This document shows positions 7,205 through 57,135 of a DNA stretch of 64,000 nucleotides, in pieces. Position numbers and translations under genes: made by a program. The stretch spans positions 124,001-188,000 of the forward strand of contig NZ_KB905823.1 of the NCBI RefSeq assembly GCF_000381025.1, given 5' to 3'. A model generated the notes under the pieces. That model was given only the letters and a program-made list of their open reading frames with translations. It made no database searches and was not told the origin of the DNA. This DNA comes from Streptomyces sulphureus DSM 40104 (GTDB lineage: Bacteria; Actinomycetota; Actinomycetes; Streptomycetales; Streptomycetaceae). How positions within the stretch are numbered: position 1 is the first letter of the stretch; the number at the start of each line of letters is the position of its first letter.

Positions 7205-7208
<4 letters not shown>
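2628..7208 (+). CDS. Type I polyketide synthase, one module KS-AT-KR-ACP
   Basis: Single-module PKS of 1526 residues that adds one extender unit and reduces the beta-keto group to a hydroxyl. The KS (about residues 30-455) has Cys200 in DTACSSS and the His motifs EAHGTGT and NLGHTEAA. The AT (about 550-860) has Ser644 in GHSMGEIAAA. Its specificity loop reads VAFHG (742-746), closest to the malonyl-type HAFH signature, so malonyl-CoA is the likelier substrate. The KR (about 1120-1330) has a GASGLLG nucleotide loop, a little off the common TGGTGALG, and retains the Ser and Tyr (HYAAAN) catalytic motifs. ACP Ser1445 lies in GLDSLMS. There is no DH or ER. The start is the ATG of an ATGA overlap with the upstream PKS, and the stop overlaps the next start in the same way. 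Confidence 0.95.

Positions 7209-30093: not shown

Positions 30094-30101
<8 letters not shown>
29283..30101 (+). CDS. Type II thioesterase (external editing thioesterase)
   Basis: 272-residue alpha/beta hydrolase of the GrsT/RifR type. Such free-standing thioesterases remove stalled or wrong acyl groups from carrier proteins of PKS and NRPS lines. The nucleophile Ser101 lies in GHSMGA, and His236 in GKHFYL is the likely catalytic histidine. The N-terminal [14 protein letters not shown] and the LPGRQDR stretch are typical of the family. The ATG at 29283 was chosen because homologous sequence begins shortly after it and a purine-rich stretch lies upstream. The 3' end overlaps the start of the carboxylase beta gene by 8 bases, so the two are coupled. 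Confidence 0.93.
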
Positions 30102-31691
<1,590 letters not shown>

Positions 31692-31695
<4 letters not shown>

Positions 31696-35774: not shown

Positions 35775-35865
35775 GAGGCCCACGAGGAACGAGCGCGTGA
35801 ACGCGACTGCGGGAACGCACCAACAGCCCCCGGGACGACCCGGGGAAGAGAACGGGGGAGCCATC

Positions 35866-37650: not shown

Positions 37651-37775
37651 CGCCGAGTCACGTCAGCCGTGCATCGATTCTGATTGCGCCTAACAATGAG
37701 GATGCGCTAAAAAGAGTGAGTGAATAGCGAAATGTGGCTCGCGGAGCCCGGCGGCCGGTCAGCGAAGGCGGGGAC
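37651..37775. promoter_or_regulatory. AT-richer leader before the exporter gene, possible promoter/operator
   Basis: This 125-base gap is clearly less G/C-rich than its surroundings. It contains two similar elements in direct orientation, TTGCGCCTAAC (37684-37694) and ATGCGCTAAAA (37702-37712), 18 bases apart. A TetR gene lies just past the exporter, so an operator here is plausible, but no strong palindrome is visible. The exporter's ribosome-binding site GAAGGCGGGG ends at 37773. Confidence 0.35.
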
Positions 37776-39353: not shown

Positions 39354-39371
39354 AGCCGCAGCGAAATCGAA

Positions 39372-39403
39372 GGCCGGCCGCACCCGTGGGGGTGCGGCCG
39401 GCC
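39372..39403 (+). terminator. Strong hairpin between exporter and TetR gene
   Basis: A perfect 14-bp inverted repeat (left arm GGCCGGCCGCACCC, right arm GGGTGCGGCCGGCC) with a 4-base loop lies 18 bases after the exporter stop. There is no T-run, as is usual for high-GC actinobacterial hairpin terminators. It may end the cluster transcript or attenuate expression of the TetR gene that starts 26 bases later. Confidence 0.7.
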
Positions 39404-39429
39404 CGCATGTGCGATATGAGAGGAATGCT

Positions 39430-40035
39430 GTGAAGTCCCCAGCTCCCGGCTTGCGCGAGCGCAAGAAGATGCGGATGCGCACGACCATCAGGCGTGAAGC
39501 CCTTCGTCTGTTCGTCGAGAACGGTTATGAGCGGACGACGGTCGAGCAGATCGCTGAAGCGGCGGAAATCGCCCACACCACGTTTTTTCGTTACTTTCCT
39601 TCGAAAGAGCACGTGGTCTTCGCCGATGAATACGACCTGCTGCTGCGGGAGGCCATCACTTCGCGCCCGGACGAAGAGCCGGTGCTGATGGCCGTGCGCA
39701 ATGGGGTGGTCGAACTGTGCAGGAGCACTCTCGACGCCGACCAGGAGGAGTTGCTCACCCGCATGCGGTTGATCGACCAGGTGCCTGCACTCCGCGCACG
39801 GCTGCCGCAGCACCAGCGCGATGAGACGGGATTCCTGGCGGAGTTCCTTGCCCGGCGGCTGGGGCGCGACTCCGACGATCTCGTGGTGCGGGTGCTCGTG
39901 GGAGTCCTGGGTTCGATGGTGGCGGAGGTCCTGCTGGCCTGGGCGAGATACAGCGGTGAGCAGCCCCTGGAGGAACTGTTCGCGTCCCTCTTCGATGAGG
40001 TGTCCGAGTTCTTCACCGCGGTCGGCGAGGGGTGA
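39430..40035 (+). CDS. TetR-family transcriptional regulator
   Basis: 201 residues. The N-terminal helix-turn-helix (about residues 20-60) reads IRREALRLFVENGYERTTVE and then IAEAAEIAHTTFFRYFPSKE, the classic TetR DNA-binding domain. The C-terminus resembles the MftR/TetR_C_17-like ligand domain. The GTG at 39430 is preceded by GAGAGGA at about six bases. It follows the exporter on the same strand behind a strong hairpin, so it probably controls the exporter or the cluster; its operator has not been located with confidence. Confidence 0.9.
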   Translation: MKSPAPGLRERKKMRMRTTIRREALRLFVENGYERTTVEQIAEAAEIAHTTFFRYFPSKEHVVFADEYDLLLREAITSRPDEEPVLMAVRNGVVELCRSTLDADQEELLTRMRLIDQVPALRARLPQHQRDETGFLAEFLARRLGRDSDDLVVRVLVGVLGSMVAEVLLAWARYSGEQPLEELFASLFDEVSEFFTAVGEG

Positions 40036-43102: not shown

Positions 43103-44716
43103 TCAGGGAGCCTCCGCCGCGCCGACCCGGCGCGGGTCGGCGCAGGCGTGGGCCGTGCCCGTGACCGGGTCGAGGGTGATGCCCTCGAAGTTGCCGGTGA
43201 GGGCGTTCCAGGGGTTGACGACCTTGGTCCACAGACGCTCCCGATCCGCCCAGCGCCGCACCTCGCGCAGTATGTCCGGGGGGAACCCCGCCTCCAGCAG
43301 GTTCCCCGGCTGCCATCCTCGTTCGGGCGTGTGCGGGCGGGCACCGAACCGGGGTGCGCGTACGGACTCCTCGATGGTCATCCCGAAGTCGACGAGGTTC
43401 ACCAGGTTCTGGAGGATGTTGGCCACGAGGGAGACCGAGGGCGAACCGGAGACGATGAGGGGTTCTCCGTCCCGCAGCACGAGGTTCGGTGCCAGGTAGA
43501 CGGACGCCCGCTCACCCGCGCCGGGCATGACGCGCTGGAAGAAGGAGCCGCCGCCGGAGAGTTGGAATCCCTCGCAGAAGAGTCCGTTGACGAACCCGGA
43601 GGCCATGTGCGAGTGGGTCAGAGAGGCCACATCGCCCGACGCGTCCACGACGGAGACGTGGATGGTGCCCGGTGAGGGCGGTGCCGCGCCGGGTGGCGGG
43701 GCCGTCTCCAGAAGCGCCATCCGCGTCCGGGCGTGGTCCTTGGAGAGCAGCACTTCCAGCCGCTCCCGGTCCTCGGACAGGTCGCGCCGCAGCGGCGGCG
43801 CGTAGTAGGCGGTGTTGTGCGCCTGGATGAGCAGGCGCAGCGTCTCCGGCGAGGCGCTGGGCGGGCCCAGGCGTGCCAGGTCCACGGTCTCCAAAATGTT
43901 CAGCGCGCCGATCAGTTGGACGCCGCCGTCGTCGGGCGGCGGGGAGGCCACGATCCGGGCGCCCCGGTACGTGCCGGTTACCGGTTCCTGCACGCGGACC
44001 CGGTAGTGCTCGAAGTCCCGCTCGGTGATGACCCCTCCGTCGGCACCGACGATCTCGGCGAACGCGCGGGCGAACGCGCCGAGGTAGTAGTCCATGCCCT
44101 CGTCGCGCAGGCGCTGGAGCGTACGGGCCGCACACGGCTGCTTGATCGTCTGGCCCGGTACTGCGAGGTGGCCCTCCGCGAAGAACACCTCGCGCATCTG
44201 CTCGGACGCGCCCAGGTTCGCCTGCTCGCCGTAGGCCGTGCCGTACAGGAAGGGGTTCACCTCGAATCCCTCGGTGGCGGCGGCGATCGCCGGCGCCAGG
44301 AGGCGGTCGGTGCTCCGGCTGCCGAAGCGGCGCCGGGCCTCGTCGAAGGCCGGCCACCAGCCGGGTACGGGAACGCCGCGTCCGCGCGTCAGGTCTGCTC
44401 CGGTGAAGTCGGGGAGCGGCGCGAGAGGGGCGTTGACGTTGCCGTTGAGGTAGGTCGCGGTACCGGTTCGCGCGTCCCGGTGAAGCACGCTGAGTCCGCC
44501 CGTCAGCGACGTCATGTGCGGCTCGACGACGAGTTGGGTGGCGGCCGCCGCGAGCGCGGCGTCGGCGGCGTTGCCGCCTTCGCGGAGCACGTCGCGCGCA
44601 GCGCGGGTGGCCAGCGGATGCGAGGTGACGACCATGCCGCGCTCGCCGGCAACCGGTGGTTTCGGGCCGTAGCGGGCGGGTGCGACGGGGTCGTCGCCTG
44701 CGGACGGTGCGTTCAT
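43103..44716 (-). CDS. Gamma-glutamyltransferase family protein
   Basis: 537 residues of the Ntn-hydrolase gamma-glutamyltranspeptidase fold. These proenzymes cleave themselves before a catalytic Thr and hydrolyse or transfer gamma-glutamyl groups. The N-terminal motif VVTSHPLATRAARDVLREGGNA and the self-cleavage site PGTIHVSVVD with Thr351 are visible; most family members have TTH, here TIH. The later SGSPSVSLVANILQNLVN is the GGSPGG-region equivalent. No signal peptide is apparent, so it is probably cytoplasmic. The start overlaps the upstream transporter stop as ATGA, placing it last in a six-gene operon. The context with HyuA/HyuB suggests cleavage of a gamma-glutamyl or pyroglutamyl-derived substrate. 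Confidence 0.9.
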   Translation of the reverse strand: MNAPSAGDDPVAPARYGPKPPVAGERGMVVTSHPLATRAARDVLREGGNAADAALAAAATQLVVEPHMTSLTGGLSVLHRDARTGTATYLNGNVNAPLAPLPDFTGADLTRGRGVPVPGWWPAFDEARRRFGSRSTDRLLAPAIAAATEGFEVNPFLYGTAYGEQANLGASEQMREVFFAEGHLAVPGQTIKQPCAARTLQRLRDEGMDYYLGAFARAFAEIVGADGGVITERDFEHYRVRVQEPVTGTYRGARIVASPPPDDGGVQLIGALNILETVDLARLGPPSASPETLRLLIQAHNTAYYAPPLRRDLSEDRERLEVLLSKDHARTRMALLETAPPPGAAPPSPGTIHVSVVDASGDVASLTHSHMASGFVNGLFCEGFQLSGGGSFFQRVMPGAGERASVYLAPNLVLRDGEPLIVSGSPSVSLVANILQNLVNLVDFGMTIEESVRAPRFGARPHTPERGWQPGNLLEAGFPPDILREVRRWADRERLWTKVVNPWNALTGNFEGITLDPVTGTAHACADPRRVGAAEAP

Positions 44717-46167
44717 GACTGGAGGTCCTCCTTGGACGGGGCGGGCCGGGGAGCGGCTTGCGAGGGGTCGGGGTCCCGGGGAGCGGGCGATCCACTCCCG
44801 GCGTCCGGTTCCGCCGGCTCGCGTACGGCGTCGATGGCCTTCGGTAGGGCGAACGCGGCGACCAGCGCGGACACCAGGCAGACGGCGGCCATGTACCAAC
44901 CGAAGGAGACCTCGGTACCGGTGGCCGAAACCAGCCAGGAGGCCAGCAGCGGTGCGGTGCCGCCCAGCAGCGTGGTGCCCAGGTTGTAGTTGAGCGCCGC
45001 CGCCGTTCCCCGCACGTGTGCGGGGAAGCTCATCACGTAGGCGGTGGTCAGCGGGCCGCCGATGACGTTGTTGATGACGGTGAAGACGACGACGGCGAGA
45101 AAGGCGAGGAGGAAGGAGCCAGATTCGATGGCGACGAACGTCGGCACCGTGAACAGCACGAAGACGCTGTAGCCGGACACCAGCAGCCGCTTGCCGCCGT
45201 ACTTGTCGGCGATCCAGCCGCCCCAGACCGCGGCGGGGGCGCCGACGACGTACGTGAGGATGGCCGCGAGCAGTGCCTGCGCCTCCCCGAAGCCGTTCTG
45301 GACCAGCGCGGTGACGAAGTAGCTCTGGATCATGAAGGAGCCGACGCGCTGTCCCGCGCCGAGGCCGATGGCGCAGAACATGTCCCGCCAGTGGTAGCGG
45401 ACGGCCTCACGGAACGGCGTCTGCTCGACCGCGCTGTTCCTGGCCTCTTCCAGCACCCGCTTGTACTCGGGGGCTTCCGTGGTGTGCCGGCGGATGTAGA
45501 GCGTGACCAGGGAGAGGGGAGCAGCCAGCAGGAACAGCAGCCTCCAGCCCCAGGAGTTGAAGGCGTCGGAGGGCAGCGTCACGATCAGGACGTACGCGAG
45601 GACGGAGGCGATCAGGGGCCCCAGCGAGGTGGAGCCGACTGACCACCCCGAGAGGTAGTTGCGCCGATTGCGGGGGCCGTGCTCCAGCAGGAAGTTGGCA
45701 GCGACGGTGTACTCCGCGCTCGCGCCGAGCCCCTGCACCAGTCGGCAGAGCGCGAGCAGGACGGGCGCCGCGATACCGATCGCGGAGTAGGCGGGCAGGA
45801 CGCCGATCGCGACCGTGCCGACCGACATCATGACGATGGTCAGGGTGAGGACGTACTTGTGGCCCTTCACGTCGGCCAGCCGTCCCATGAGCGTGCCGCC
45901 GACGGGGCGGATCGCGTAGGAGAGGATCAGGCCCAGATAGGTCGAGATCAGCGCGACCGTGGGGTCACCGCCGGGGAAGAACGTCCGCGAGATGACGACG
46001 GCGAGGATGCCGTAGAGGGCGTTGTCGTACCACTCCACGGCGTTGCCGAGCATCGCTGCCCAGAGCACCTTGCGCCAGGGGGCGCCGGAAGCCTGCTCGG
46101 CGGGTGTGTCCTCTGGGCTCGGGTCGGCCGGGGAAGAAGTGGCAGGTGGTGCGGGGGTGCTCGGCAT
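44713..46167 (-). CDS. MFS transporter, metabolite:H+ symporter (MHS) family
   Basis: 484 residues, about 12 membrane segments. The MHS signatures are clear: GNAVEWYDNALYGILAVVI at the first helix, the loop GRLADVKGHKY and RLVQGLGASAEYTVAANF (GGE replaced by GAS). MHS proteins (KgtP, ProP, ShiA) import organic acids or zwitterions with protons. Start ATG 46167 is preceded by AAGGAGG. It lies in the catabolic operon between hyuB and the gamma-glutamyltransferase gene and is most likely the uptake system for the pathway substrate. Confidence 0.92.
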   Translation of the reverse strand: MPSTPAPPATSSPADPSPEDTPAEQASGAPWRKVLWAAMLGNAVEWYDNALYGILAVVISRTFFPGGDPTVALISTYLGLILSYAIRPVGGTLMGRLADVKGHKYVLTLTIVMMSVGTVAIGVLPAYSAIGIAAPVLLALCRLVQGLGASAEYTVAANFLLEHGPRNRRNYLSGWSVGSTSLGPLIASVLAYVLIVTLPSDAFNSWGWRLLFLLAAPLSLVTLYIRRHTTEAPEYKRVLEEARNSAVEQTPFREAVRYHWRDMFCAIGLGAGQRVGSFMIQSYFVTALVQNGFGEAQALLAAILTYVVGAPAAVWGGWIADKYGGKRLLVSGYSVFVLFTVPTFVAIESGSFLLAFLAVVVFTVINNVIGGPLTTAYVMSFPAHVRGTAAALNYNLGTTLLGGTAPLLASWLVSATGTEVSFGWYMAAVCLVSALVAAFALPKAIDAVREPAEPDAGSGSPAPRDPDPSQAAPRPAPSKEDLQS

Positions 46168-46270
46168 TGAGACACCTCCTTGCTCTGTCCTGGGGCGGGT
46201 CGCCCGGAAGGGGATCAAGTCGACGTGCCCGGCGGGAGGCTTGGCCTCCGGCGCCGGAGCGGGCGTGCTG

Positions 46271-47926
46271 CTACGTGGTGGTGCTGGCGGAGGTGTCGGT
46301 GACGGAGCCCTCGCGGACGTCCCGGTCCAGCTCCCGGGGGCCGCGTGCGGCAGGGTCCCCGTAGCCGCCGGCGCCGGCCGTGACGATGCTGACGCGGTCG
46401 CCGGGCTGGAGCACCGTGGCACCGCCGGTCACCGGCTGTGCCCCGTCACTGAGTTCGACCCTCGCCGAGGTGCCGGGCAGTCCGCCCTCGAGGCCCCACG
46501 GGCGGGAGAGCTGACGGCTGGTGTCCAACTGGAACCGCACGTCGTGTTCCTCCACGCGGACGGTGCGCCTGATGCCCATGCCGCCGCGCGTCCTGCCGGC
46601 GCCGCCGGAGTCGGGCACGAGCTCGTACGCCTCGACGACCAGCGGGTACTCGGTCTCGAGTGCTTCGACGGGCAAATTGGAGGTGTTGGTGACGTGGACC
46701 TGCACGCCGTCCAGGCCGTCCTTGGTCGCGCGCGCTCCCGAGCCGCCGCCGATGGTCTCCAGGTAGACGAAGTAGCGGCCCGTCCCGCTGTCGAGGCCCG
46801 AGAAGTGCACCCCGGTGTTGGCGCCGTTGGAGGCGGCGGTGACCCGGTCGGGCACGGCGGGGGCCAGGGCGCCGTGGATGAGGTCGACCACGCGCTGGCA
46901 GGTCTCGGTGCGCCCGTTGACGGCTGCCGGCTCGACGCAGTTGACGATCGAGCCCAGGGGCGCCTCGATTCGGATCGGCCTGTGCAGCCCCGCGTTGGAG
47001 GGGATGTCCGGGTCTACCAGGGTCTTCACCGCGTAGTAGACCGTGGCGTACAGCGCGGTCCACACCATGTTGACCGAGGCGCGCACCTGCGGCGGGTTGT
47101 CCGCGAAGTCGAAGTGCAGTCGGTCGCCGGCCACGGTCACTTGCAGCCGCAGGTCCAGCTCCTCCTCGCCCAGCTCCGGACAGTCGAAGCGGTCCGTGAA
47201 CGTGTATGTGCCGTCGGGTACCTCGACGATGGCGGCGCGGGTGCGGCGCTCGGTGTAGTCGAGCAGCGCAGCCGAAGCAGTGGTCATGGTGGCGCGGCCG
47301 TACCGTTCCACCAGCTCTCCGTAGCGGCTCGCCGCGAGCCGGTTGGCCGCCATCTGCGCCCGGAAGTCCGCCTTCCGCTCGGCTGGCACCTGGCAGTTGG
47401 TGAGGACGAGCTGGAAGACGTCCTCCACGATGGCGCCGTCCCGTGCGAAGCGCACCGGCGGGACGCGGACGCCTTCCTGGAAGATGTGCGCGTGCCCACG
47501 ATCGCCGAAGTCGGCGTGATGGGCGAGGTTGGCGGCCCACGCGGTGAGCTGCCCGTCGGCGAAGACCGGGGTGACGAGCACCATGTCCGGAAGGTGCGAA
47601 CCCCCGCCGGAGTAGGGGTCGTTGCTGAGGAAGGTGTCTCCCGGCCGGATCTCGTCTGCCGGGAAGCGCTCCAGCACGGCCGCGACGACGCCGATGAGGG
47701 AGCCGAGGTGCACGGGCGAGGCCAGCTCGGCCTGGGCGAGCATGTGCCCCTCCGCGTCGAAGAGGCCCGCCGTACAGTCCCTTCGCTCCTTGATGTTGCT
47801 GGAGTAGGCGGCGCGGACCAGGGTCTCGCCCATCTCCTCGACGATCGAGGCGAGGGCCGAGCCCATGACCTCCACCAGCACGGGGTCCACGGTCTCTTCA
47901 GCGGTACGGTGCGCGTGCGCGTTCAT
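46271..47926 (-). CDS. hyuB: Hydantoinase/oxoprolinase subunit B
   Basis: 551 residues of the HyuB family, which with HyuA forms ATP-dependent hydantoinases, 5-oxoprolinases or the related acetone carboxylases. Landmarks are MGETLVRAAYSSNIKERRDC, FLSNDPYSGGGSHLPD, the metal-binding-like AHHADFGDRG and the Gly-rich ETIGGGSGAR. The start ATG 47926 lies 23 bases after the hyuA stop. A GTAxxG-type linker and the C-terminal GGAGGYGDP end are complete. With the flanking kinase, deglycase and gamma-glutamyltransferase, a 5-oxoproline (pyroglutamate) or cyclic-amide opening role fits best. Confidence 0.92.
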   Translation of the reverse strand: MNAHAHRTAEETVDPVLVEVMGSALASIVEEMGETLVRAAYSSNIKERRDCTAGLFDAEGHMLAQAELASPVHLGSLIGVVAAVLERFPADEIRPGDTFLSNDPYSGGGSHLPDMVLVTPVFADGQLTAWAANLAHHADFGDRGHAHIFQEGVRVPPVRFARDGAIVEDVFQLVLTNCQVPAERKADFRAQMAANRLAASRYGELVERYGRATMTTASAALLDYTERRTRAAIVEVPDGTYTFTDRFDCPELGEEELDLRLQVTVAGDRLHFDFADNPPQVRASVNMVWTALYATVYYAVKTLVDPDIPSNAGLHRPIRIEAPLGSIVNCVEPAAVNGRTETCQRVVDLIHGALAPAVPDRVTAASNGANTGVHFSGLDSGTGRYFVYLETIGGGSGARATKDGLDGVQVHVTNTSNLPVEALETEYPLVVEAYELVPDSGGAGRTRGGMGIRRTVRVEEHDVRFQLDTSRQLSRPWGLEGGLPGTSARVELSDGAQPVTGGATVLQPGDRVSIVTAGAGGYGDPAARGPRELDRDVREGSVTDTSASTTT

Positions 47927-47949
47927 GGCGAGTTTCCTGTTCGGTACGG

Positions 47950-50040
47950 CTAGCGCTGTGCGGCCGCCGGGTCGGTGACGTGTATGACGAGGTTGGAGTG
48001 CGCGTCGACGGTGAGCAGATCGCCGGGCAGCAGCACGGTCGTGGTGTCCATCTGCTCGACCACGGCGGGCCCTTCGAGTCGGTTGCCGGGTCGCATCAGC
48101 TCGCGGTTGTGGACGGGCACGGGCGTGAAGCCGCCCAGCTCCGGCAGGTGCACGTCCCGGACACCGGTGAGGGAGGCCGAGGCGTCGGCGCCGGCGGGCT
48201 CCGCGCGCGGAAGCTCCGCCTTGGGCACCCGGCCCACGGCGCGTACCCGGAGGGTCACGGCCTCGACGGGTTCGCCGGGGGAGTCGTACCCGTACAGGCG
48301 GTGGTGCTCCGTGCTGAAGGACTCCAGCACGGTGCTGATCGCGTCACCGTCGAGGGGACCGTCGGGGACCGGCACCGGGATCTCGTAGTTCTGTCCCGCG
48401 TAGCGCAGTTCAGCGGTGCGCTGCGTACTCCGGTCGCCCGGCGCGACCTCCTCGGCCTCGAACCAGGTCTCCGCCTCGATGCCCAACTCCCCGTACAGCT
48501 CGCCGAGGCGGGCGGCCGAGGCGGTGGCGAAGGGCTGGATACGGGTGCGGGAGAAGTCCGCGCGTACGTCGGTCATCAGCAGCCCGAGCGCCGACTGCGC
48601 CCCAGGCGTGGGCGGTACCACCACCGTGCGCATCCCCAACTCGCGGGCGAGCCGCGAGGCGTGCAGCGGTCCGGCACCGCCGAAGGGCACCAGGGCGTAG
48701 TCGCGGGGGTCGTAGCCGCGCTGCACGGAGATGACGCGCAGGGCACGCGCCATGTTCGCGGAGACGACCCGCAGGATGCCCTGCGCCGTCTCCTCGATGC
48801 CGAGCCCGGCGCGCTCGGCGAGGCGGCCGACGGCGGCCCGGGCCGCGCCCTCGTCCACGGGCATCTGACCGCCGAGCAGCTCAGTCGGGTTGAGCGTGTG
48901 GAGCACGACGTTGGCGTCGGTCACCGACGCCTCGGTCCCCTTGCCGTAGCAGGCGGGGCCCGGATCGGCGCCCGCGCTGGCCGGTCCCACCTTGAGGTGG
49001 CCGCCGGCGTCCACCCGGGCCAGCGAGCCGCCGCCGGCCCCCACGGTGTGGATGTCGAGCATGGGTGTGCGCAGGGGGCGGCCGTCCAGCTCCATGCCGG
49101 TGGTCACCTTCGGCGTCCCGTCCCGGACGAGGGAGACGTCGGAGGAGGTGCCGCCCATGTCGAAGGTGATGATGTCGGGATGGCCGGCGGCCGAGCAGAT
49201 CTCGGCGGCGCCGACCACGCCGGTGCTGGGCCCGGAGAGCACCATGCGGACGGGGAACTCCTCGGCGGCCTCGAACGGGATGATGCCGCCGTTGGACTGG
49301 GTCACGTGCGGTACGGCGCCCAGGCCGCACGCCGCGAGCCGTTCGCGGAGCCTGGCCAGGTACGCGGAGACGACAGGGCCCACGTAGGCGTTGGTGGCGA
49401 CCGTCGAGAGCCGCTCGTACTCGCGGAACTCCGGCAGCACCCGGCTGGAGAGTGAGATGTGGGCACCCGGCAGCTCCTCGGTGAGGATCTCCCCGACGCG
49501 CTCCTCGTGCGCGGGGTGGAGGAAGCTGTAGAGCAGGCAGACGGCGACCGCCTGCACGTCCCGCTCGCGCAGGGCCTTCGCCGCGGTGCGGACGTCCTGC
49601 TCGTTTAGCGGCGTCTCGACCCGTCCGTCGTGGCGTACCCGTTCGGTCACTTCCAGGCGCAGGTCCCGCGGCGCGACGGGGACGGGCTTGTCCGCCTGGA
49701 GGTCGTACAGCCGGGGGCGGCGGCCTCGGCCCAGCTCCAGCAGGTCGCGGAAGCCCCGCGTCGTGATCACACCGGTACGGGCGCCCCGCTGGGTGAGCAG
49801 CGCGTTGGTGCCGACCGTGGTGCCGTGCGCGAAGTACGCCACCTCCGCCATGGTGCGCTTGGCGCCCTCCCGGCCTCCGCCCATCTGGCGCAGGAGCTCC
49901 TGGACTCCGTCCACGATGGCGCGGCCCGGGTCGTCGGGTGTGCTGGAGACCTTCCGCACCTGGATGGTGCCGTTCTCCTCGTCGAAGGCGACGATGTCGG
50001 TGAAGGTGCCTCCGGTGTCGACACCGATGCGCAATGTCAT
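47950..50040 (-). CDS. hyuA: Hydantoinase/oxoprolinase subunit A
   Basis: 696 residues with the ASKHA-type ATPase fold. The N-terminal phosphate loop is IGVDTGGTFTDIVAFD, and later motifs include HGTTVGTNALLTQ, FDMGGTSSDVSLV and GGAGPLHASRLAREL. It drives ATP-dependent opening of a cyclic amide together with HyuB. The start ATG at 50040 overlaps the stop of the kinase gene (ATGA). The protein is of ordinary family length. Hydantoinase and 5-oxoprolinase members cannot be separated by eye. Confidence 0.92.
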   Translation of the reverse strand: MTLRIGVDTGGTFTDIVAFDEENGTIQVRKVSSTPDDPGRAIVDGVQELLRQMGGGREGAKRTMAEVAYFAHGTTVGTNALLTQRGARTGVITTRGFRDLLELGRGRRPRLYDLQADKPVPVAPRDLRLEVTERVRHDGRVETPLNEQDVRTAAKALRERDVQAVAVCLLYSFLHPAHEERVGEILTEELPGAHISLSSRVLPEFREYERLSTVATNAYVGPVVSAYLARLRERLAACGLGAVPHVTQSNGGIIPFEAAEEFPVRMVLSGPSTGVVGAAEICSAAGHPDIITFDMGGTSSDVSLVRDGTPKVTTGMELDGRPLRTPMLDIHTVGAGGGSLARVDAGGHLKVGPASAGADPGPACYGKGTEASVTDANVVLHTLNPTELLGGQMPVDEGAARAAVGRLAERAGLGIEETAQGILRVVSANMARALRVISVQRGYDPRDYALVPFGGAGPLHASRLARELGMRTVVVPPTPGAQSALGLLMTDVRADFSRTRIQPFATASAARLGELYGELGIEAETWFEAEEVAPGDRSTQRTAELRYAGQNYEIPVPVPDGPLDGDAISTVLESFSTEHHRLYGYDSPGEPVEAVTLRVRAVGRVPKAELPRAEPAGADASASLTGVRDVHLPELGGFTPVPVHNRELMRPGNRLEGPAVVEQMDTTTVLLPGDLLTVDAHSNLVIHVTDPAAAQR

Positions 50041-50903
50041 GGTTTGCCTGCCTGGGCTTGTGAGGGGACGGGACTGTTGGGGAAGGGGGCTCCGTGGCCG
50101 AAACCGCCGTACGCGGTGCACGCGGACGCCGCCGCCTCGGCCGCGTCCGCGAGCCCGGACTCCGGGTCGCCGTCCGCGAGGAGCGTGCCGAGAAGGGTGC
50201 CGACGAAGGCGTCCCCCGCGCCGAGGGTGTCCACGGTCCGGGTGCGGACCGCGCCCTGGCGCCAGAGCCCCGTGCCGTCGGTGAGCACTGCTCCCTCGGC
50301 TCCCCGCGTGGCCAGAGCCCACCGCGCGCCCCGGTCCGTCGCGCTGTGGAGCAGTTTGACCGACTCCTCCTCGCCGAGCTGTGACGCGGAGAACACCGCG
50401 AGATGGAGATGGGGGAGAAGGGGTGGGGCCCACGGCTCCCGCCAGTGGTGCGAGAAGTCGAACGAAACCGAGGTGTGGGCGGCCATCTGCGGCACCTGCG
50501 CTGCCAGCGAGCCGCTGTAGGCGGTGTGTGCGAGGTCGTACGAACCCAGTGCCCGCAGGTCCTCGGGTGTGAGGGAGAAGACGGAGACTCCGTCGTCCGA
50601 GCCCTTGAAGGACCTGTCGCCGTTCTCCAGCCCGATCTCGGCCCAGGCGTTGGGTCCGTGCGCGATGCGCATGCGGGAGGTGTCGACGCCCTCGGAGCGC
50701 AGACCTTCCCGAACGACCTCTCCTGCCGGGTCGTCCCCCGTCACGCCCCAGTACGCGGCGTCGGCACCGGCTCTGCGCGCGTACACCGCGACGTTGACGG
50801 CGTTGCCGCCGGGAAACATCGTTCCGCCGCCGGCGTCGGGTGGTACCCCTGCGTACCGGTCGACGACGTTGTCCCCGATCCCCAACAGGCGCACGCGCCC
50901 CAT
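50037..50903 (-). CDS. frlD: PfkB-family sugar kinase, FrlD (fructoselysine 6-kinase)-like
   Basis: 288 residues of the ribokinase/PfkB fold. The N-terminus (LLGIGDNVVDRYAG; MFPGGNAVNVAVYARR) closely follows FrlD-type kinases, and the catalytic motif DTLGAGDAFVGTLLG is complete. Such kinases phosphorylate the 6-position of a fructosyl-amino acid (Amadori compound). It lies between a FrlB-like deglycase (overlap TGATG) and hyuA (overlap ATGA). The start ATG 50903 is set by those overlaps. The exact Amadori substrate is inferred from context only. Confidence 0.85.
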   Translation of the reverse strand: MGRVRLLGIGDNVVDRYAGVPPDAGGGTMFPGGNAVNVAVYARRAGADAAYWGVTGDDPAGEVVREGLRSEGVDTSRMRIAHGPNAWAEIGLENGDRSFKGSDDGVSVFSLTPEDLRALGSYDLAHTAYSGSLAAQVPQMAAHTSVSFDFSHHWREPWAPPLLPHLHLAVFSASQLGEEESVKLLHSATDRGARWALATRGAEGAVLTDGTGLWRQGAVRTRTVDTLGAGDAFVGTLLGTLLADGDPESGLADAAEAAASACTAYGGFGHGAPFPNSPVPSQAQAGKP

Positions 50904-51931
50904 CAGTACGCGACCCGGTACATGTACCTGCGCTGCGCGGTGTTGTGGCCGCGCTCGGCGGCGCAGAAGTCCAGCAGCCGCCGGGAGGCCGACGCGATGG
51001 CGAGCGGGCTGATCAGTCCCCGCTGCTCCTCGGGGACGCCGGGCAGGGTGAAGGCGGTGGAGTCGAGCACCGCATGGGTGTCGTAGTACCGCTCGGCGAA
51101 GGCGACGGCGCGTTCCCCGATGGGGCGCGTGGAGTCCTCGCCGTTGAGGATGAGCACCGGGTGCTGGCCGATGATCTCGAAGGGGCCGTGGAAGAAGTCG
51201 CCCGCACTGACCGCGGAGGCGTGCAGCCAGTTCATCTCTTGGAGGTAGCAGGCCGCGAGCGCGTTGGCGGCTCCCGAGTTGGGTCCGGCCCCGAGCACGT
51301 AGACCAGCTCGGCGTCCCGCCACTGGGCGCCCACTCGGGCACCGAGCGGGGCGACCTCCCGCTTGGCGGATGCCAGCGCTTCGGGGATCGCCTCGATCGC
51401 GCCCCAGGCGGCCCCGGGGTCCGGGAGCGCGCCGGCCGACTCCAGTACGGCGAGAGCGATCTGCGTGAAGTGGATGGCCTTCGGCTCGGTGACCGTGACA
51501 TCGCTCGGGTAGTCGAAGAGCACATCGGCCTCGTCGGCCATCGCCGAGTCCCCGGCCCGCGCGATACCCGCCACGGTGGCACCCGCCTTCTTGGCGAGCT
51601 GGACCGCTTCCAGAGTCTCGGGCGTGGCACCGGAGTGCGAGGAGGCGACGACGAGCGCCGAGCCGTCGAGCCCGGCCAGCGGCCGGTGGATCATCTCGGC
51701 CGCCGTCATCCGGTGCGAGACGGGTGAGGCCGTGTGGCTCTCCATCAGGTCCTGGGCAGGGAAGGTCGAGTAGAACGAGCCGCCGCAGCCGACGAAGTAG
51801 ACGGTGCGCAGCCGGTCGGCGAGGCGGGAAGCGAGCTCGCGTGCCGCGGGCGCCTGGGCGACGGTGCGCTCCAGGGTCGGGGCGAGGTCGGTGGCGAGCG
51901 GGATGGGGTCGACGGCGACTGGCGACGGCAT
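50903..51931 (-). CDS. frlB: SIS-domain sugar isomerase/deglycase, FrlB-like
   Basis: 342 residues with two SIS folds. The first has VYFVGCGGSFYSTFPAQDL and SSHSGATPET; the second has LGAGPNSGAAN, followed by the FrlB-type SAGDFFHGPFEII and LILNGEDSTRPIGER. FrlB-type enzymes split a 6-phosphofructosyl-amino acid into glucose 6-phosphate and the free amino acid. The start ATG 51931 is preceded by AAGGAGA; an in-frame upstream Met at 51973 lacks a site. It is the first gene of the minus-strand operon, directly facing two LacI-type palindromes. Confidence 0.85.
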   Translation of the reverse strand: MPSPVAVDPIPLATDLAPTLERTVAQAPAARELASRLADRLRTVYFVGCGGSFYSTFPAQDLMESHTASPVSHRMTAAEMIHRPLAGLDGSALVVASSHSGATPETLEAVQLAKKAGATVAGIARAGDSAMADEADVLFDYPSDVTVTEPKAIHFTQIALAVLESAGALPDPGAAWGAIEAIPEALASAKREVAPLGARVGAQWRDAELVYVLGAGPNSGAANALAACYLQEMNWLHASAVSAGDFFHGPFEIIGQHPVLILNGEDSTRPIGERAVAFAERYYDTHAVLDSTAFTLPGVPEEQRGLISPLAIASASRRLLDFCAAERGHNTAQRRYMYRVAY

Positions 51932-52037
51932 CGGGAGGGTCTCCTTGGAACGGGTCGGGTGCGCGCCCGCCACCGAGAACGCCGGACCGGCGCAGGGCGC
52001 GCGCCGATCAGGAACGCCGCCTTCCGGAAGTCGGTTA

Positions 52038-52053
52038 CTGAGAAGGTTCTCAG
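52038..52053. promoter_or_regulatory. Palindromic operator 1, probable LacI site
   Basis: CTGAGAAGGTTCTCAG: perfect 7-bp arms around a GG centre, in the divergent promoter between the frlB-like gene and the LacI gene. A second copy lies 24 bases further along, as its reverse complement with one change. Confidence 0.8.
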
Positions 52054-52061
52054 TGGCAGTG

Positions 52062-52077
52062 GTGAGAACCTTCTCAG
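52062..52077. promoter_or_regulatory. Palindromic operator 2, probable LacI site
   Basis: GTGAGAACCTTCTCAG: the reverse complement of operator 1 except for its first base. Centre-to-centre spacing to operator 1 is 24 bases, allowing two dimers side by side. A weaker partial match occurs near 52105-52120 (GGGAAAAGTTCTCGAG), closer to the LacI start. Confidence 0.8.
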
Positions 52078-52149
52078 CGCCTTAGACTGTCGTCAACAGG
52101 TTCTTGGGAAAAGTTCTCGAGACGGCCGACCGGGCCGGAGAGGGGCGAG

Positions 52150-53325
52150 GTGCCGCACAGGGAGAAAGGCTCGGGCCCCCCGAGCATCGTCGAGGTCGCC
52201 CGTGAGGCAGGAGTCTCCACCGCCACGGCGGGCCGGGTGCTCGGCGGCTACGGGCAGGCCAGCGCCGCCTCACGCGCCAAGGTCGAGGACGCCGCCCGCC
52301 GGCTGTCCTACCGGCCCAACGGCCTTGCCCGCAGCCTCATCCACGGCTCGACGGAGACGGTGGGCGTCATCGTCACCGATGTCGGCAACCCCTTCTTCGC
52401 CAGCGCCGTGCGGGCCATCACCGACGTCGTCCGTGCGGCCGGCTACGAGATGCTGCTGGCCAACACCGACTCCGATCCGGAAGCCGAACGGCGGGCGATC
52501 CAGGTCATGTGGGAGAAGCGCGTCGACGGGTTGATCGTCGCACCGCAGTCCCCCGAGAGCGCCGAGCGGCTCCGCGCGCTGGCCGACGCAGGACTGCCGC
52601 TCGTCCTGCTGGACAGGCCGCTGCCCGCGCTGCCCCAGGTCGACCAGGTCATCATCAACAACACCTTGTGCGCACAGCGGGCCGTGGCGCACCTCGTGCG
52701 GCTCGGACACCGTCGCATAGCCGTGCTCAGCGAGGCGGCCCGGGACTTCCCGAGACTGCGCGACGCCGCGCCGGCGGAGGGGGACGCCGAGCGGCCCAGC
52801 GCCGCACGGCTCGTGGGCTACGCCGCGGCGCTGCGCCGCGCCGGTCTCACCCCCGACCCGGGGCTGATCGTCCACTCTCCCTACGACAGGGACGCCGCGA
52901 CGCACGCCGTGCTGCGCCTGCTGCGGCGGGACCCGGGCGTCACGGCGCTCTTCTGCACCGACAACGTGCTCGCCTCGGGCGCGGTCGCCGCTCTCCAGCG
53001 CAGCGGACGCGCCTGCCCCGATGACGTCTCGCTCGTCGGTTTCGACGACCAGGAGTGGACCACGCTGGTACGGCCCCGATTGACGGTCGTACGCCAGCCG
53101 AACCGCGAACTGGGCAGCACGGCGGCCGAACGTCTGCTGGAGAGGATCGCGGAGCGGCGCGGAGACGGCGCAGGCGACCCGGGCACGGAGGAGGCAGCGA
53201 CCACCGGGAGCGGCACGGCGCCGGACGCCGCCCGAGACGCCGACGCGCAGGACGGGCAACGGCTGGTGCTGCGCGGCAGGTTGATCGCACGAGACTCCAC
53301 GGGACCTCCTCCCGCTGTGTCCTGA
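52150..53325 (+). CDS. LacI-family transcriptional regulator of the catabolic operon
   Basis: 391 residues. The N-terminal helix-turn-helix and hinge read SIVEVAREAGVSTATAGRVL and later RRLSYRPNGLARSLIHG, followed by a periplasmic-binding-protein-like sensor domain (VGVIVTDVGNPFFASAVRAI; VDGLIVAP; GFDDQEWTTLVRPRLT). The GTG at 52150 follows GGGGCGAGG. It is divergent from the frlB-like operon with twin palindromes between them, so it very likely represses that operon and perhaps itself. The last ~60 residues are an extra, unconserved Asp/Ala-rich stretch. Confidence 0.93.
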   Translation: MPHREKGSGPPSIVEVAREAGVSTATAGRVLGGYGQASAASRAKVEDAARRLSYRPNGLARSLIHGSTETVGVIVTDVGNPFFASAVRAITDVVRAAGYEMLLANTDSDPEAERRAIQVMWEKRVDGLIVAPQSPESAERLRALADAGLPLVLLDRPLPALPQVDQVIINNTLCAQRAVAHLVRLGHRRIAVLSEAARDFPRLRDAAPAEGDAERPSAARLVGYAAALRRAGLTPDPGLIVHSPYDRDAATHAVLRLLRRDPGVTALFCTDNVLASGAVAALQRSGRACPDDVSLVGFDDQEWTTLVRPRLTVVRQPNRELGSTAAERLLERIAERRGDGAGDPGTEEAATTGSGTAPDAARDADAQDGQRLVLRGRLIARDSTGPPPAVS

Positions 53326-53416
53326 GACGACGAGCGGGCAGCGCGACGACCGCCGACCCGCTTCCCGGCACGGGGAGTCGAGACCGTGCAGGAAGACCCG
53401 TTCGAAGGAGGCGCAC

Positions 53417-54589
53417 ATGGCAGCCCGGCGCATCGCCGTCATCGGAGCCGGTGTACTGGGCACCGCGCTCGCCCACCGGCTGACCGAAGAACGCGGAACG
53501 CCCGTCGAAGTCGCACTGTTGGACGGTGAGCGACCGGGACACGGGACCAGCCGCTGGAGTCTGGCCTGGCTCAACTCCAACGGCAAGGCACCGCGCGCTT
53601 ATCACGACCTCGGGACCCGCAGCATGGCCGCCTGGGGACGGCTGGCGGAACGCACGGGCGGCGACGCCTGGTACCGCCCGGTCGGCAACCTGCGGTGGGC
53701 CGAGGAGGAGAAGGGCATGCGGCGCCTGGCGGAACGGGTCGCGTGGATGACCGCATGGGGCTACCCGGCGGAGCTCGTGGGCCGGCGCAGGATCGCCGAC
53801 CTGGAACCGGCGCTGGAGCTGCCCTCGGACCTCACCCGCGCCGCCTGGTTTCCCCAAGAGGGCTACGTACTCACGGAATTGATGATCGCTTCCCTTGTAG
53901 AGCGGGCACGGGCACAGGGCGCCGACGTACGCAGCGGCCCGGCCGGTCACGTGACAGCGGTCGAGGGGGAGGCCGGCGGGCCGCGCGTGGTGCGGACGGC
54001 GGACGGCGGAAAGCTGGAGACCGACACCGTGGTGTGCTGCGCGGGACGGTGGACACCGGAGGTGTCGCGGTTGGCGGGAGCCCCCGGGGCCGGCGTCCCG
54101 ATCGTCGACCCCCAGCCCCCCGGCTCCTCGGCGCCCGCGCTGGTCGTCCGGGCAGGACCCGTACGCGACGCACCCCTGCGCGTCCTGCACACGCCGCGCG
54201 TCCACCTGCGCGCGCACGGCGCGGACAGCACCCAAGTCCACTTGGAGGCAGGGGACGTGGCCGTCGACCTCCACACTCCCGAGCGCGAACTCGACGAGTG
54301 GGCGACGACCCTCCTGGAGCGTGCCCGCTCTCTCCTCCCCTCCCTCCGGAACGCGGAGGTCGTCGCGCGGAAGGTGTGCGTGCGGCCCATGCCGCCGGAC
54401 GGACTGCCGATCGTGGGCCCGGCGGCGGAAGCGGGCGGCCCGTACGTGGCGGTGACGCACAGCGGGGTGACGCTCGCCCCGGGCCTCGCGGAGCTGGTGG
54501 CCGAGGAGCTGCTGACAGGCAGACGTCACCCGGACCTGGCTCCGTTCAGGCCGGAACGGTTCGCGCCGGGATCGGCCGGTGGCGAGTGA
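53417..54589 (+). CDS. FAD-dependent amino acid/amine oxidase (DadA/DAO family)
   Basis: 390 residues with the N-terminal FAD motif RIAVIGAGVLGTALAHRL, a central DGERPGHGTSRWSLAWLN, and the C-terminal PMPPDGLPIVGPAAEAGG with VAVTHSGVTLAPGL typical of glycine/D-amino-acid oxidases. It oxidises a C-N bond of an amino acid or amine. The ATG at 53417 has GAAGGAGG in front. It follows lacI on the same strand after 91 bases and may be part of the same regulon, for example acting on the amine released from the pathway substrate; that link is inference. Confidence 0.85.
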   Translation: MAARRIAVIGAGVLGTALAHRLTEERGTPVEVALLDGERPGHGTSRWSLAWLNSNGKAPRAYHDLGTRSMAAWGRLAERTGGDAWYRPVGNLRWAEEEKGMRRLAERVAWMTAWGYPAELVGRRRIADLEPALELPSDLTRAAWFPQEGYVLTELMIASLVERARAQGADVRSGPAGHVTAVEGEAGGPRVVRTADGGKLETDTVVCCAGRWTPEVSRLAGAPGAGVPIVDPQPPGSSAPALVVRAGPVRDAPLRVLHTPRVHLRAHGADSTQVHLEAGDVAVDLHTPERELDEWATTLLERARSLLPSLRNAEVVARKVCVRPMPPDGLPIVGPAAEAGGPYVAVTHSGVTLAPGLAELVAEELLTGRRHPDLAPFRPERFAPGSAGGE

Positions 54590-55010: not shown

Positions 55011-56468
55011 TCAGTTCTTGCTGTCTTCGGTGGGGGTCGTCGGCTCGGGGAGGCTGGGCAGGAGCAGGCAGAGCGGAACAGCGGCGGCGGTGAGGGCCAC
55101 GGACCACCAAAACGCGTGGTCGTAGCCGTCTGCCAGGGCGCTGGGGGTGTGAGCGTCGCCGATGTTCTGCTGGAGGATGACAAGGAGGATGGCGACGCCT
55201 ACCGCACCGCCGATCTGCTGGGCGACGCGGGTGATCATGCTGGCGTCCGGAATCTGCTCGTGCTCCAGTCCGACGAAGGCGGCGCCCATGGGCGCGATCA
55301 TGGCAGCGCCGAGGGCGATGCCGCGGACGAACAGCGCGGCCATGAGCAGGCTTTCGTCGGTGTCGGCGGTGACGAAGGCGAACGGCACGGTGGATGCGGC
55401 GACGAAGACGAACGCGACGAGGGCCACCGTGCGGGAGCCGACTCGATCCATGTACTTGCCTGCCAGGCCTCGGGCGACGAGGGCACCGACTCCTTGAGGG
55501 ATGAGCAGCAGTCCGGCGCCGAGGGGGGTCGCGCCGCGGACCTGCTGGAAGTACAGGGGCAGCAGCATCATCGAGCCGAACAGGGAGATCCCGCCGAGGA
55601 AGAGCAGGGTGGATGACGAGGCCACCGAGCGGTGCCGAAACATGCGCACATCGACCAAGGGGGCGGACGCCCGGGTGAGAGCCCAGACGGCGAAGCCCCC
55701 GACCAGAGCGACCCCGGCGAGCAGTGGGATGAGGACCTGAGCACTGGCGAAGCCCGTGCTGCCGTCGACCTGGGAGAGGCCGTAGAGCAACGCCGCGGAA
55801 CCTGGGCAGAGCAGGATCAGGCCGACGGTGTCCAGACGGACGCGGGGGCGGTCGGCTGCGGGCCGGTCGTCGGGCAGGTTGCGCCAGGCGAGCCAGATTC
55901 CGACGAGGCAGAAGGGGATGTTGATGAGGAACAGCCAGCGCCAGTCGGCCAGGTAGAGGACGAGTCCGCCCAGAACCGGGCCGAGGATCGGCCCGAGCGC
56001 CGTGGGCACGGTGATGATGGCCATGACCTTGCCGATGTTCCGGCCCTTGGTGGCCTGCATGAGCAGGGTGTACATCAGCGGCATCATGATGCCGCCGGCG
56101 AGGCCCTGGACGATCCGGAACGCGATGAGGCTGGTGGCGTTCCAGGCCAGGGCACTCAGGATCGACCCGACCAGGAACCCGCCCAGAGCGACGACCCACA
56201 GGCGCCGGCCGCCGAGCCGTGCCTGGGCCCATCCAGCAAGCGGAATGGTGACGAAGACGGCCAGCATGTAGCCGGTGCTGACCCACTGGATGGTCGACAG
56301 CGTCGCGCCGAAGTCTTTGGCCAGGTCGTTCAGGGCGACGCTGATGATGGTGGTGTCGAAGACGACACCGAGAGCACCAACGATCAGAGTGATCGCCATG
56401 CGCAGCACGGCGGGATCTACTCGGCCGGGGTCTGCGGGGACAGGCTCGGCCTCGCGGGATGTGCTCAC
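55011..56468 (-). CDS. MFS multidrug exporter, DHA2 (EmrB/QacA) family
   Basis: 485 residues, about 14 hydrophobic segments. Family motifs are GVVFDTTIISVALNDLAKD, QWVSTGYMLAV, RIVQGLAGGIMMPLM and ALGPILGPVLGGLV. The GTG at 56468 has AGAGG at eight bases; a GTG at 56477 sits too close to that site. It is divergent from a TetR gene at 56566, the usual layout of a repressor-controlled efflux pump. The likely role is export of a toxic compound. It is different in sequence from the cluster exporter at 37776-39353. Confidence 0.93.
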   Translation of the reverse strand: MSTSREAEPVPADPGRVDPAVLRMAITLIVGALGVVFDTTIISVALNDLAKDFGATLSTIQWVSTGYMLAVFVTIPLAGWAQARLGGRRLWVVALGGFLVGSILSALAWNATSLIAFRIVQGLAGGIMMPLMYTLLMQATKGRNIGKVMAIITVPTALGPILGPVLGGLVLYLADWRWLFLINIPFCLVGIWLAWRNLPDDRPAADRPRVRLDTVGLILLCPGSAALLYGLSQVDGSTGFASAQVLIPLLAGVALVGGFAVWALTRASAPLVDVRMFRHRSVASSSTLLFLGGISLFGSMMLLPLYFQQVRGATPLGAGLLLIPQGVGALVARGLAGKYMDRVGSRTVALVAFVFVAASTVPFAFVTADTDESLLMAALFVRGIALGAAMIAPMGAAFVGLEHEQIPDASMITRVAQQIGGAVGVAILLVILQQNIGDAHTPSALADGYDHAFWWSVALTAAAVPLCLLLPSLPEPTTPTEDSKN

Positions 56469-56480
56469 GATCGACACCTC

Positions 56481-56549
56481 TAAGATAGAAACCTCTTCCT
56501 TACTCCGCTCAAGGTAGTCCGGTACCGTAAGAAAGACAAATCTATCTAA
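56481..56549. promoter_or_regulatory. Divergent promoter/operator region for the TetR-MFS pair
   Basis: This AT-richer intergenic DNA has nested symmetry. The outer arms are TAAGATAGA (56481-56489) and TCTATCTAA (56541-56549), which match at 8 of 9 positions when inverted. The inner arms are CTTAC (56499-56503) and GTAAG (56527-56531), and a palindrome CGGTACCG lies at 56520-56527. TetR binding at one or more of these is likely; which one is the true operator cannot be decided from sequence. Confidence 0.5.
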
Positions 56550-56565
56550 CTTGTGAGGGCGAACA

Positions 56566-57135
56566 ATGGCTCAGCGGCGCCGCGGGGCGGAACTGGAAAA
56601 GGCACTCCTCGATGCGGCCTGGAACGAGCTCACCGACAACGGCTACGCCAGGTTCACCATGGACGCCGTCGTCAAGCGCGCGGGCACCAGCCCGCCCGTG
56701 CTCTACCGCCGCTGGTCCGATCGCGACGGACTCATCCGGGCCACCATCGTCCACATCCTCCGGGAGTCCCGTCCCGCCATCCCCGACACCGGGAGCCTGC
56801 GGGAGGACCTCCTCGCCCTCATGCGGCACATTGCCACCCAGCACGTGCAGCTGGTCACCGTGATGTACGCGCACCTGGCCAGCTACTACCGGGAAACCGG
56901 AAGAAGCCCCAGCAGCCTGTTCGACCCCGTCGCGACGGGCCGCACGACAGCGCTCGACACGCTCTTCGACCGCGCCGTCGAGCGGGGCGAGATTCAGCCG
57001 GAATCCCTCACCGAGCGCATCAAAACCCTGCCCTTTGTCCTGCTGCGCCACGAGATCCTCTCGACGTTCGCCCCGGTACCCGAACACGTCCTGGAGGAGA
57101 TCCTCGACACCGTCTTCCTCCCCCTGGTGTGCTGA
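56566..57135 (+). CDS. TetR-family transcriptional regulator of the adjacent exporter
   Basis: 189 residues. The helix-turn-helix region is LEKALLDAAWNELTDNGYAR then FTMDAVVKRAGTSPPVLYRRW (about residues 10-52). The C-terminus (PDTGSLREDLLALM; LFDRAVERGEI) is the TetR_C_11 type. The ATG at 56566 follows GTGAGGG. The divergent layout with the MFS gene and the symmetric intergenic DNA indicate a local repressor that is released by a pump substrate. Confidence 0.92.
   Translation: MAQRRRGAELEKALLDAAWNELTDNGYARFTMDAVVKRAGTSPPVLYRRWSDRDGLIRATIVHILRESRPAIPDTGSLREDLLALMRHIATQHVQLVTVMYAHLASYYRETGRSPSSLFDPVATGRTTALDTLFDRAVERGEIQPESLTERIKTLPFVLLRHEILSTFAPVPEHVLEEILDTVFLPLVC

Follow-up and report, generated by a model that had tools for sequence, protein, structure and literature searches.

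A predicted LacI-controlled operon of Streptomyces sulphureus DSM 40104 with a probable role in the degradation of N-fructosyl-pyroglutamate

The frl operons (E. coli frlABCD, B. subtilis frlBONMD) encode a PfkB kinase and a SIS deglycase for 6-phospho-Amadori compounds under FrlR, a GntR-type regulator, and the soc enzymes for santhopine (fructosyl-glutamine) differ in being oxidative. Fructosyl-glutamine cyclises to fructosyl-pyroglutamate, and agropinic acid is also an N-sugar pyroglutamate, namely N-mannityl pyroglutamate, mannityl being the sugar of the aga locus of Ti plasmids. Here, we describe a six-gene operon and its two divergent neighbors at 43103 to 54589 of a 64,000-nucleotide stretch of Streptomyces sulphureus DSM 40104 (NCBI RefSeq assembly GCF_000381025.1, contig NZ_KB905823.1, positions 124,001 to 188,000 of the forward strand; hereafter the window), which probably serves, under LacI control, to degrade N-fructosyl-pyroglutamate, the cyclised form of fructosyl-glutamine. 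Santhopine and the soc genes represent the same nutrient class in soil and plant bacteria, and santhopine itself is present in decaying plants and tobacco roots (PMC8262997, PMC4231840); by mass spectrometry, fructosyl-pyroglutamate has been assigned as a constituent of buckwheat honey (PMC12114437). The Salmonella fra operon has an importer of the DcuA family, and its FraE removes the side-chain amide first, followed by the kinase FraD and the deglycase FraB (PMC12755824).

The genome (7.1 Mb, 26 contigs) carries the six operon genes on the minus strand in the order frlB-frlD-hyuA-hyuB-MHS permease-GGT-fold gene, with lacI and a FAD oxidase gene reading divergently on the plus strand:

50903-51931, minus strand: FrlB-like fructosamine-6-phosphate deglycase (SIS domain 2.6e-15; match to PDB 3EUA 5.8e-45)
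50037-50903, minus strand: FrlD-like fructosamine 6-kinase (PfkB 6.4e-30; GAGDAF motif at 228)
47950-50040, minus strand: HyuA, ATP-binding subunit of a predicted ATP-dependent lactamase (Hydantoinase_A 2.7e-91)
46271-47926, minus strand: HyuB, metal-site subunit of the predicted lactamase (Hydantoinase_B 1.6e-174)
44713-46167, minus strand: MHS-family metabolite:H+ symporter, candidate importer (TIGR00883 6e-92)
43103-44716, minus strand: GGT-fold N-terminal-nucleophile hydrolase (G_glu_transpept 3e-73)
52150-53325, plus strand: LacI-family regulator (LacI and Peripla_BP domains)
53417-54589, plus strand: FAD-dependent amine oxidase/dehydrogenase of the DAO family (DAO 1e-48)

Three of the five junctions overlap (FrlB/FrlD by 1 base, FrlD/HyuA by 4, MHS/GGT by 4), and the remaining gaps are 23 bp (HyuA-HyuB) and 103 bp (HyuB-MHS). 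All six operon proteins fall below the curated NCBIfam cut-offs for named enzymes, the MHS permease scoring 309 bits against TIGR00883 (cut-off 443). The enzyme families of the operon are known, but their combination did not turn up in the searched literature, where neither titles nor the opening parts of abstracts describe an operon of this kind, most subscription journals being outside its scope. A preliminary description of this DNA had also known of no operon with exactly this set; the gene set, order and coupling it gave are borne out by the overlapping junctions and by the same order in nine other genomes, its LacI gene is confirmed, its DadA-like oxidase is an FAD oxidase of the DAO family, and its FrlB and FrlD assignments are supported as deglycase-like (SIS, 3EUA) and kinase-like (PfkB, best NCBIfam match NF007321).

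Like the frl operons, this locus joins a PfkB kinase to a SIS deglycase, with a LacI-family regulator where FrlR is GntR-type; unlike it, the E. coli frl operon has no annotated HyuAB or GGT-fold gene, and neither hydantoinase nor oxoprolinase occurs as a term in the accessible text of the B. subtilis frl paper. The fra operon differs in acting on asparagine rather than glutamine, and its asparaginase takes the place that HyuAB, perhaps along with the GGT-fold protein, would have in the window; the accessible text of PMC12755824 describes no lactam step for fra. For santhopine, the accessible text of PMC8262997 has 0 occurrences of hydantoinase, deglycase or frl. The aga locus of Ti plasmid NC_002377 shares with the window a HyuA/HyuB pair (HyuA is 53% identical to the AgaF-type and HyuB 54% to the AgaG-type protein), a LacI gene and FAD oxidase nearby, and a dedicated importer, but none of its annotated genes encodes a kinase or a deglycase. 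Where aga has the ATP-binding cassette (ABC) importer AgaABCD and the FAD oxidase AgaE, the window has the MHS permease and FrlD/FrlB.

From the gene families, motifs, gene order, palindromes and AgaFG kinship, all read from the sequence, we infer the substrate, the order of steps, repression by LacI and the roles of the MHS permease, GGT-fold protein and oxidase. The MHS permease would import N-fructosyl-pyroglutamate, HyuAB would hydrolyse its lactam at the cost of ATP to give N-fructosyl-glutamate, FrlD would phosphorylate C6 of the fructosyl group, and FrlB would split the phosphorylated product, releasing glucose 6-phosphate together with glutamate. Phosphorylation may come ahead of ring opening. 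On chemical reasoning, the ring should be open before FrlB acts, since the deglycase should require an amine, for which an amide nitrogen would not do; by similar reasoning, the kinase/deglycase route cannot free an amino acid whose nitrogen is part of a lactam, so that a ring-opening enzyme is required. Open-chain fructosyl-glutamine may be deamidated by the GGT-fold hydrolase, in the way that FraE treats fructosyl-asparagine, and the FAD oxidase may provide a side route resembling that of AgaE.

HyuAB carries the sequence features of ATP-dependent lactamases. The ATP motifs of HyuA are intact (DTGGTFTD at 8, DMGGT at 294, GADPGP at 357), and D50, H111, D114 and H136 of HyuB align to the metal ligands D41, H99, D102 and H124 of CapB, so that the pair shares ATP motifs and metal ligands with caprolactamase CapAB (structure PDB 6YRA; ligands from PMC8453981). 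Identity as a caprolactamase was rejected: the two proteins reach 574 and 277 bits where the cut-offs are 1000, and of the 19 pocket and metal positions of CapB 5 agree, four of them being the metal ligands. By phmmer, the best solved relative of HyuA is the N-methylhydantoinase 7HK5 (519 bits), ahead of 6YRA (395 bits) and carboxylase subunits (at most 314 bits), and 7HK5 is also the best for HyuB (307 bits); unlike the HyuAB pair, 7HK5 is a single fused chain of 1288 residues, with a hydantoin substrate by name. The Ti-plasmid AgaF matches HyuA with 633 bits by tblastn, a figure from a different method than the phmmer bits. Among plasmids, the best 60 rows for HyuA show 46-56% identity and are mainly alphaproteobacterial, many of them Ti- or opine-plasmid genes at about 52-54%.

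FrlB, HyuA and HyuB trees were built as quick trees with one support measure, in which the programs flagged long branches. In the HyuA tree, the window, its nine orthologues and four Microbacterium sequences form one clade (support 100) within a larger clade (99) whose other half is proteobacterial (99) and contains AgaF; the HyuB tree has the same shape, with a support of only 81 for the proteobacterial half. The window's HyuA and HyuB are therefore sister to the clade containing AgaF/AgaG and not nested within it. At 19 HyuB pocket positions the window agrees with the AgaG rows at 13, a weak discrimination given 4 to 14 for rows outside the window's clade; the Paenibacillus rows (11/19) are comparable to many rows without a link to FrlB.

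Importers of related modules point the same way as the AgaFG kinship and favour a pyroglutamate-type substrate. The Ti-plasmid locus in NC_002377 (L004) encodes HyuA, HyuB, an FAD oxidase, a short hypothetical protein and, divergently, an ABC importer; L005 and L127 have a short-chain dehydrogenase (SDR) gene in place of the hypothetical one. The binding protein of L004 hits AgaA (PDB 6HLX) at E=0 and 1097 bits (next match 3.9e-61), and the locus is on this account taken as that for agropinic acid, whose lactam AgaF and AgaG reportedly open (Lyi, Jafri and Winans, 1999); for pAoF64/95 (L127), a figure legend to a mannopine gene map mentions an agropinic-acid uptake gene (PMC6341043). Binding proteins of two further loci were compared with the PDB, and in both AgaA is the best solved relative (Microbacterium L023, 8.8e-115, next 1.1e-48; Paenibacillus L064, 3.7e-197, next 4.1e-68); the others were compared with AgaA of L004. 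Relatives of AgaA, AgaB and AgaC occur in all four Microbacterium loci (AgaA 35-41%) and in six of the seven Paenibacillus/Neobacillus loci (AgaA 58-66%; in L084, AgaA runs into the end of the stretch), and most of the related modules carry a binding protein that is 35-67% identical to AgaA. L068, L049 and L056 have no AgaA match. Outside the loci with HyuAB, AgaA matches only L060 and L062 among 57 FrlB loci and, weakly (25%), one of 40 control loci.

The pairing of HyuAB with FrlB recurs well beyond the window. A scan of a named genome collection, from which the best 80 of 180 FrlB relatives were taken, yielded 79 FrlB loci. At E<=1e-40 FrlB is rare: within the family it occurs in 3 of 297 genomes, and among 396 genomes of the phylum the window's own is the only one to carry it; in the two other family members (41% identity), the 19 kb around FrlB contain no HyuAB. 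The full six-gene order is present in 9 of the 79 loci (L013-L021, from Streptomyces, Actinoallomurus and Streptosporangium; FrlB 79-94% identical), with S. iconiensis as nearest named relative (FrlB 94% identical), and MHS and GGT relatives (E<=1e-10) occur in those nine and in none of the other 70. The position of lacI is the same in 9/9, and the FAD oxidase adjoins it in seven, the other two having no oxidase at the threshold used. HyuA and HyuB lie within the fetched stretch of 22 loci (the 9 orthologous, 4 Microbacterium, L049, L056 and 7 Paenibacillus/Neobacillus), on the FrlB strand in all 22 and with FrlD in 21; this count is a lower bound, since 19 of the 79 stretches are shorter than 15 kb, and leaving out L049 and L056 (altered metal site) and L068 (distant kinase) it becomes 19/79. 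The HyuB of L049 and L056 has Gln in place of one metal-ligand His and may catalyse another reaction.

Two loci that are near-identical here, from Rhizobium skierniewicense (L060) and Agrobacterium larrymoorei (L062), were first counted as lacking HyuAB; when extended, they show a second FrlB/FrlD pair (28% and 34% identical to those of the window) in a one-strand run, hyuA-hyuB-frlB-frlD-agaD-agaC-agaB-agaA. The two pairs of A. larrymoorei are about 13 kb apart (L175, 11659-17382; L062, 10001-11815), one in the hyuAB-frlBD-agaDCBA run and the other accompanied by lacI and by genes of other importers. On extension, L078 still showed no HyuA (E<=1e-80), and the HyuA and FrlB of L043 sit on separate contigs. 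As a control, 40 actinobacterial HyuA loci were picked by hand regardless of FrlB, favouring long contigs and high ranks and so not as a random draw (the set includes the second HyuA of the window's genome and two loci from some genomes, and two stretches are shortened). None of the 40 has FrlB or FrlD (E<=1e-5); HyuB is present in 39, an MHS relative in 8, a DAO relative in 3 and a GGT relative in 1. With the same six-gene order in nine genomes and HyuAB in 22 of 79 FrlB loci against 0 of 40 controls, the association is more than chance. The label "has HyuAB" changes at least four times on the FrlB tree, as does "beside FrlB" on the HyuB tree; these counts do not tell gains from losses, and suggest that HyuAB and FrlB were joined more than once.

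The best solved relative of FrlB, 3EUA, is a putative fructose-aminoacid-6-phosphate deglycase. E232 is conserved in 81/81 aligned rows and H248 in 72, the other 9 having Gln; both align with the Glu and His of E. coli FrlB, and we take them to be the catalytic pair. For FraB, E214A is among the mutants used (PMC12755824). FrlB reaches 83.7 bits against the E. coli-type fructoselysine-6-phosphate deglycase model NF008481 (cut-off 430), and FrlD, in which the PfkB fold and the GAGD catalytic motif are both present, 173.3 bits against its best NCBIfam match, fructoselysine 6-kinase NF007321 (cut-off 247).

The GGT-fold protein was compared, in ten sequences, with E. coli GGT (the sequence from L014 extends past the usual end). 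The Thr nucleophile and N411 are conserved in all ten. R114, D433, S462 and S463, which in the E. coli enzyme hold the gamma-glutamyl group, are replaced or gapped in every one, as are G483-G484, which correspond to Ser-Val. The protein scores 227.9 bits against TIGR00066 (cut-off 357.85), has no signal peptide by eye, and in a plasmid search finds distant relatives only (best rows 31-34%); its predicted structure is unusable (mean pLDDT, the predicted local distance difference test, 41.5). Identity as an ordinary gamma-glutamyltransferase was rejected on the loss of most gamma-glutamyl-binding residues, and an ordinary gamma-glutamyl activity is unlikely from the alignment. An amidase for N-fructosyl-glutamine is our guess, prompted by its place in the operon and the analogy with FraE.

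The spacer between lacI and frlB contains two perfect TGAGAA-NN-TTCTCA palindromes:

52039-52052, no strand assigned: operator-like palindrome 1, TGAGAAGGTTCTCA
52063-52076, no strand assigned: operator-like palindrome 2, TGAGAACCTTCTCA

These are the only two copies of the pattern genome-wide, and 100 shuffles of the 64-kb window gave 0 sites. All nine orthologous spacers carry it, in 2 or 3 copies each, and the palindrome is presumably the operator of the LacI protein. It lies within 450 bp upstream of FrlB in 14 of the 79 loci, against a mean of 0.0 loci in 20 plain shuffles of the same stretches: the nine orthologous loci and L027, L028, L043, L049 and L081, four of these five without HyuAB beside FrlB. 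Since it occurs upstream of FrlB in loci that lack HyuAB, the site belongs to FrlB-type modules more broadly, and one operator type seems to serve several fructosamine modules. In L027 and L028, which have FrlB/FrlD and no HyuAB, the palindrome has a central CG, TGAGAACGTTCTCA, and occurs twice, 34-35 bp apart, upstream of FrlB. A promoter and terminator scan found no match.

Several observations weigh against N-fructosyl-pyroglutamate as the substrate. No AgaA-type importer (E<=1e-5) is found in the 64-kb window or the nine orthologous loci. HyuAB is absent from the fetched stretch of 57 of the 79 FrlB loci (with the 19 short stretches among the 79), L075 has no FrlD in its stretch, and L068 combines a distant kinase (30%) and another HyuA lineage with no AgaA. 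The scores of FrlB/FrlD below the cut-offs for the E. coli enzymes, and of HyuAB below those for caprolactamase, leave the exact substrates unfixed. The AgaF-containing sister clade also holds plasmid genes in other settings (L124-L126), one of them beside a histidine ammonia-lyase, so that kinship by itself leaves the substrate unfixed; on their account we slightly lowered our confidence. Of two other activities raised for HyuAB in the preliminary description, both possible on sequence alone, a carboxylase loses ground, no further carboxylase subunit (acetone/acetophenone carboxylase type) being found among the six operon genes, and an N-methylhydantoinase gains from the name of the closest solved relative. 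That name, the plasmid genes in the sister clade, L049 and L056 with their different HyuAB, altered metal site (Gln for the metal His) and no AgaA match, the breadth of the HyuAB family (lactams, hydantoins) and the commonness of HyuA homologues (148 of 396 genomes at E<=1e-120) would all suit a module in which HyuAB opens another ring, a cyclic amide or hydantoin in a compound such as glycated diketopiperazine, creatinine or hydantoin. We regard such a substrate as unlikely, given that the window's clade is sister to the one containing AgaFG and that AgaA-type importers recur in three module groups.

The AgaFG kinship and the AgaA importer of related modules could also speak for degradation of mannityl opines (agropinic and mannopinic acid) by an AgaE-like oxidase and an AgaFG-like HyuAB, with FrlB/FrlD taking the fructosyl-glutamine intermediate, and the FAD oxidase has a short match to AgaE (28% over 83 residues, E 2.6e-6). 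FrlB chemistry, however, requires a ketosamine and not a mannityl group; two of the nine orthologous loci lack the oxidase at the threshold used; and no relative of the Ti-locus short-chain dehydrogenases (E<=1e-5) lies near the operon, the sole window match being in a polyketide synthase (12.6 kb), or in L175, while one is found some 19-20 kb into the stretch of L018 (S. albus). This makes opine degradation quite improbable. Very improbable, too, is a pair of unrelated catabolic sets sharing one promoter and no common substrate: operons can mix unrelated genes, and there are Streptomyces with FrlB, FrlD and LacI but no HyuAB nearby (L011; L027-L033), yet HyuAB and FrlB are paired in separate lineages and in different phyla, against 0 of 40 controls. 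The preliminary description had offered gamma-glutamyl Amadori peptides as an alternative to N-fructosyl-glutamine in its pyroglutamate form. A GGT that cuts such peptides, with HyuAB opening the released 5-oxoproline, would account for the GGT fold with its catalytic Thr and N411 in the window and all nine orthologous operons; most of the gamma-glutamyl-binding residues are lost in 10/10, though, and 13 of the 22 HyuAB loci have no GGT or MHS relative in their stretch, which makes HyuAB independent of a GGT. We give this route almost no credence. Of the "gamma-glutamyltransferase" the fold stands and the binding residues do not, the peptides are not borne out, and the pyroglutamate form is the part strengthened by the AgaFG kinship and AgaA-type importers.

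If the N-fructosyl-pyroglutamate pathway is correct, the operon provides the ring-opening enzyme for glycated pyroglutamate, proteins annotated merely "hydantoinase/oxoprolinase" gain a testable function, and the use of crown-gall opines is tied to general soil chemistry. A wider proposal, possible but in our view doubtful, is a pathway for glycated glutamine in all its forms across Actinomycetota, Bacillota and Pseudomonadota, in which HyuAB, as an ATP-dependent delactamase of the opine type, was joined several times to the kinase/deglycase pair, the GGT-fold protein of Streptomyces and kin would be a glycated-glutamine amidase and counterpart of FraE, and Ti-plasmid opine catabolism would be a specialised offshoot of a wider route for the Amadori lactams of decaying plants.

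Elsewhere in the window, a hybrid polyketide/nonribosomal peptide synthetase biosynthetic cluster ends about 14 kb before the operon, with a polyketide synthase module (2628-7208, plus strand) and a nonribosomal peptide synthetase with condensation, adenylation, methyltransferase, carrier and thioesterase domains (23812-29007, plus strand). An acyl-CoA carboxylase carboxyltransferase (30055-31695, plus strand) and a biotin-carboxylase/biotin-carrier protein, recognised by eye (35761-37650, plus strand), possibly supply extender units to the polyketide genes. Each flank of the operon region carries an MFS permease and a TetR regulator (37734-40035 and 55011-57135), and beyond them lies a serine beta-lactamase-fold protein (PF00144; 57484-59067, minus strand) with an N-terminal membrane or signal stretch by eye.

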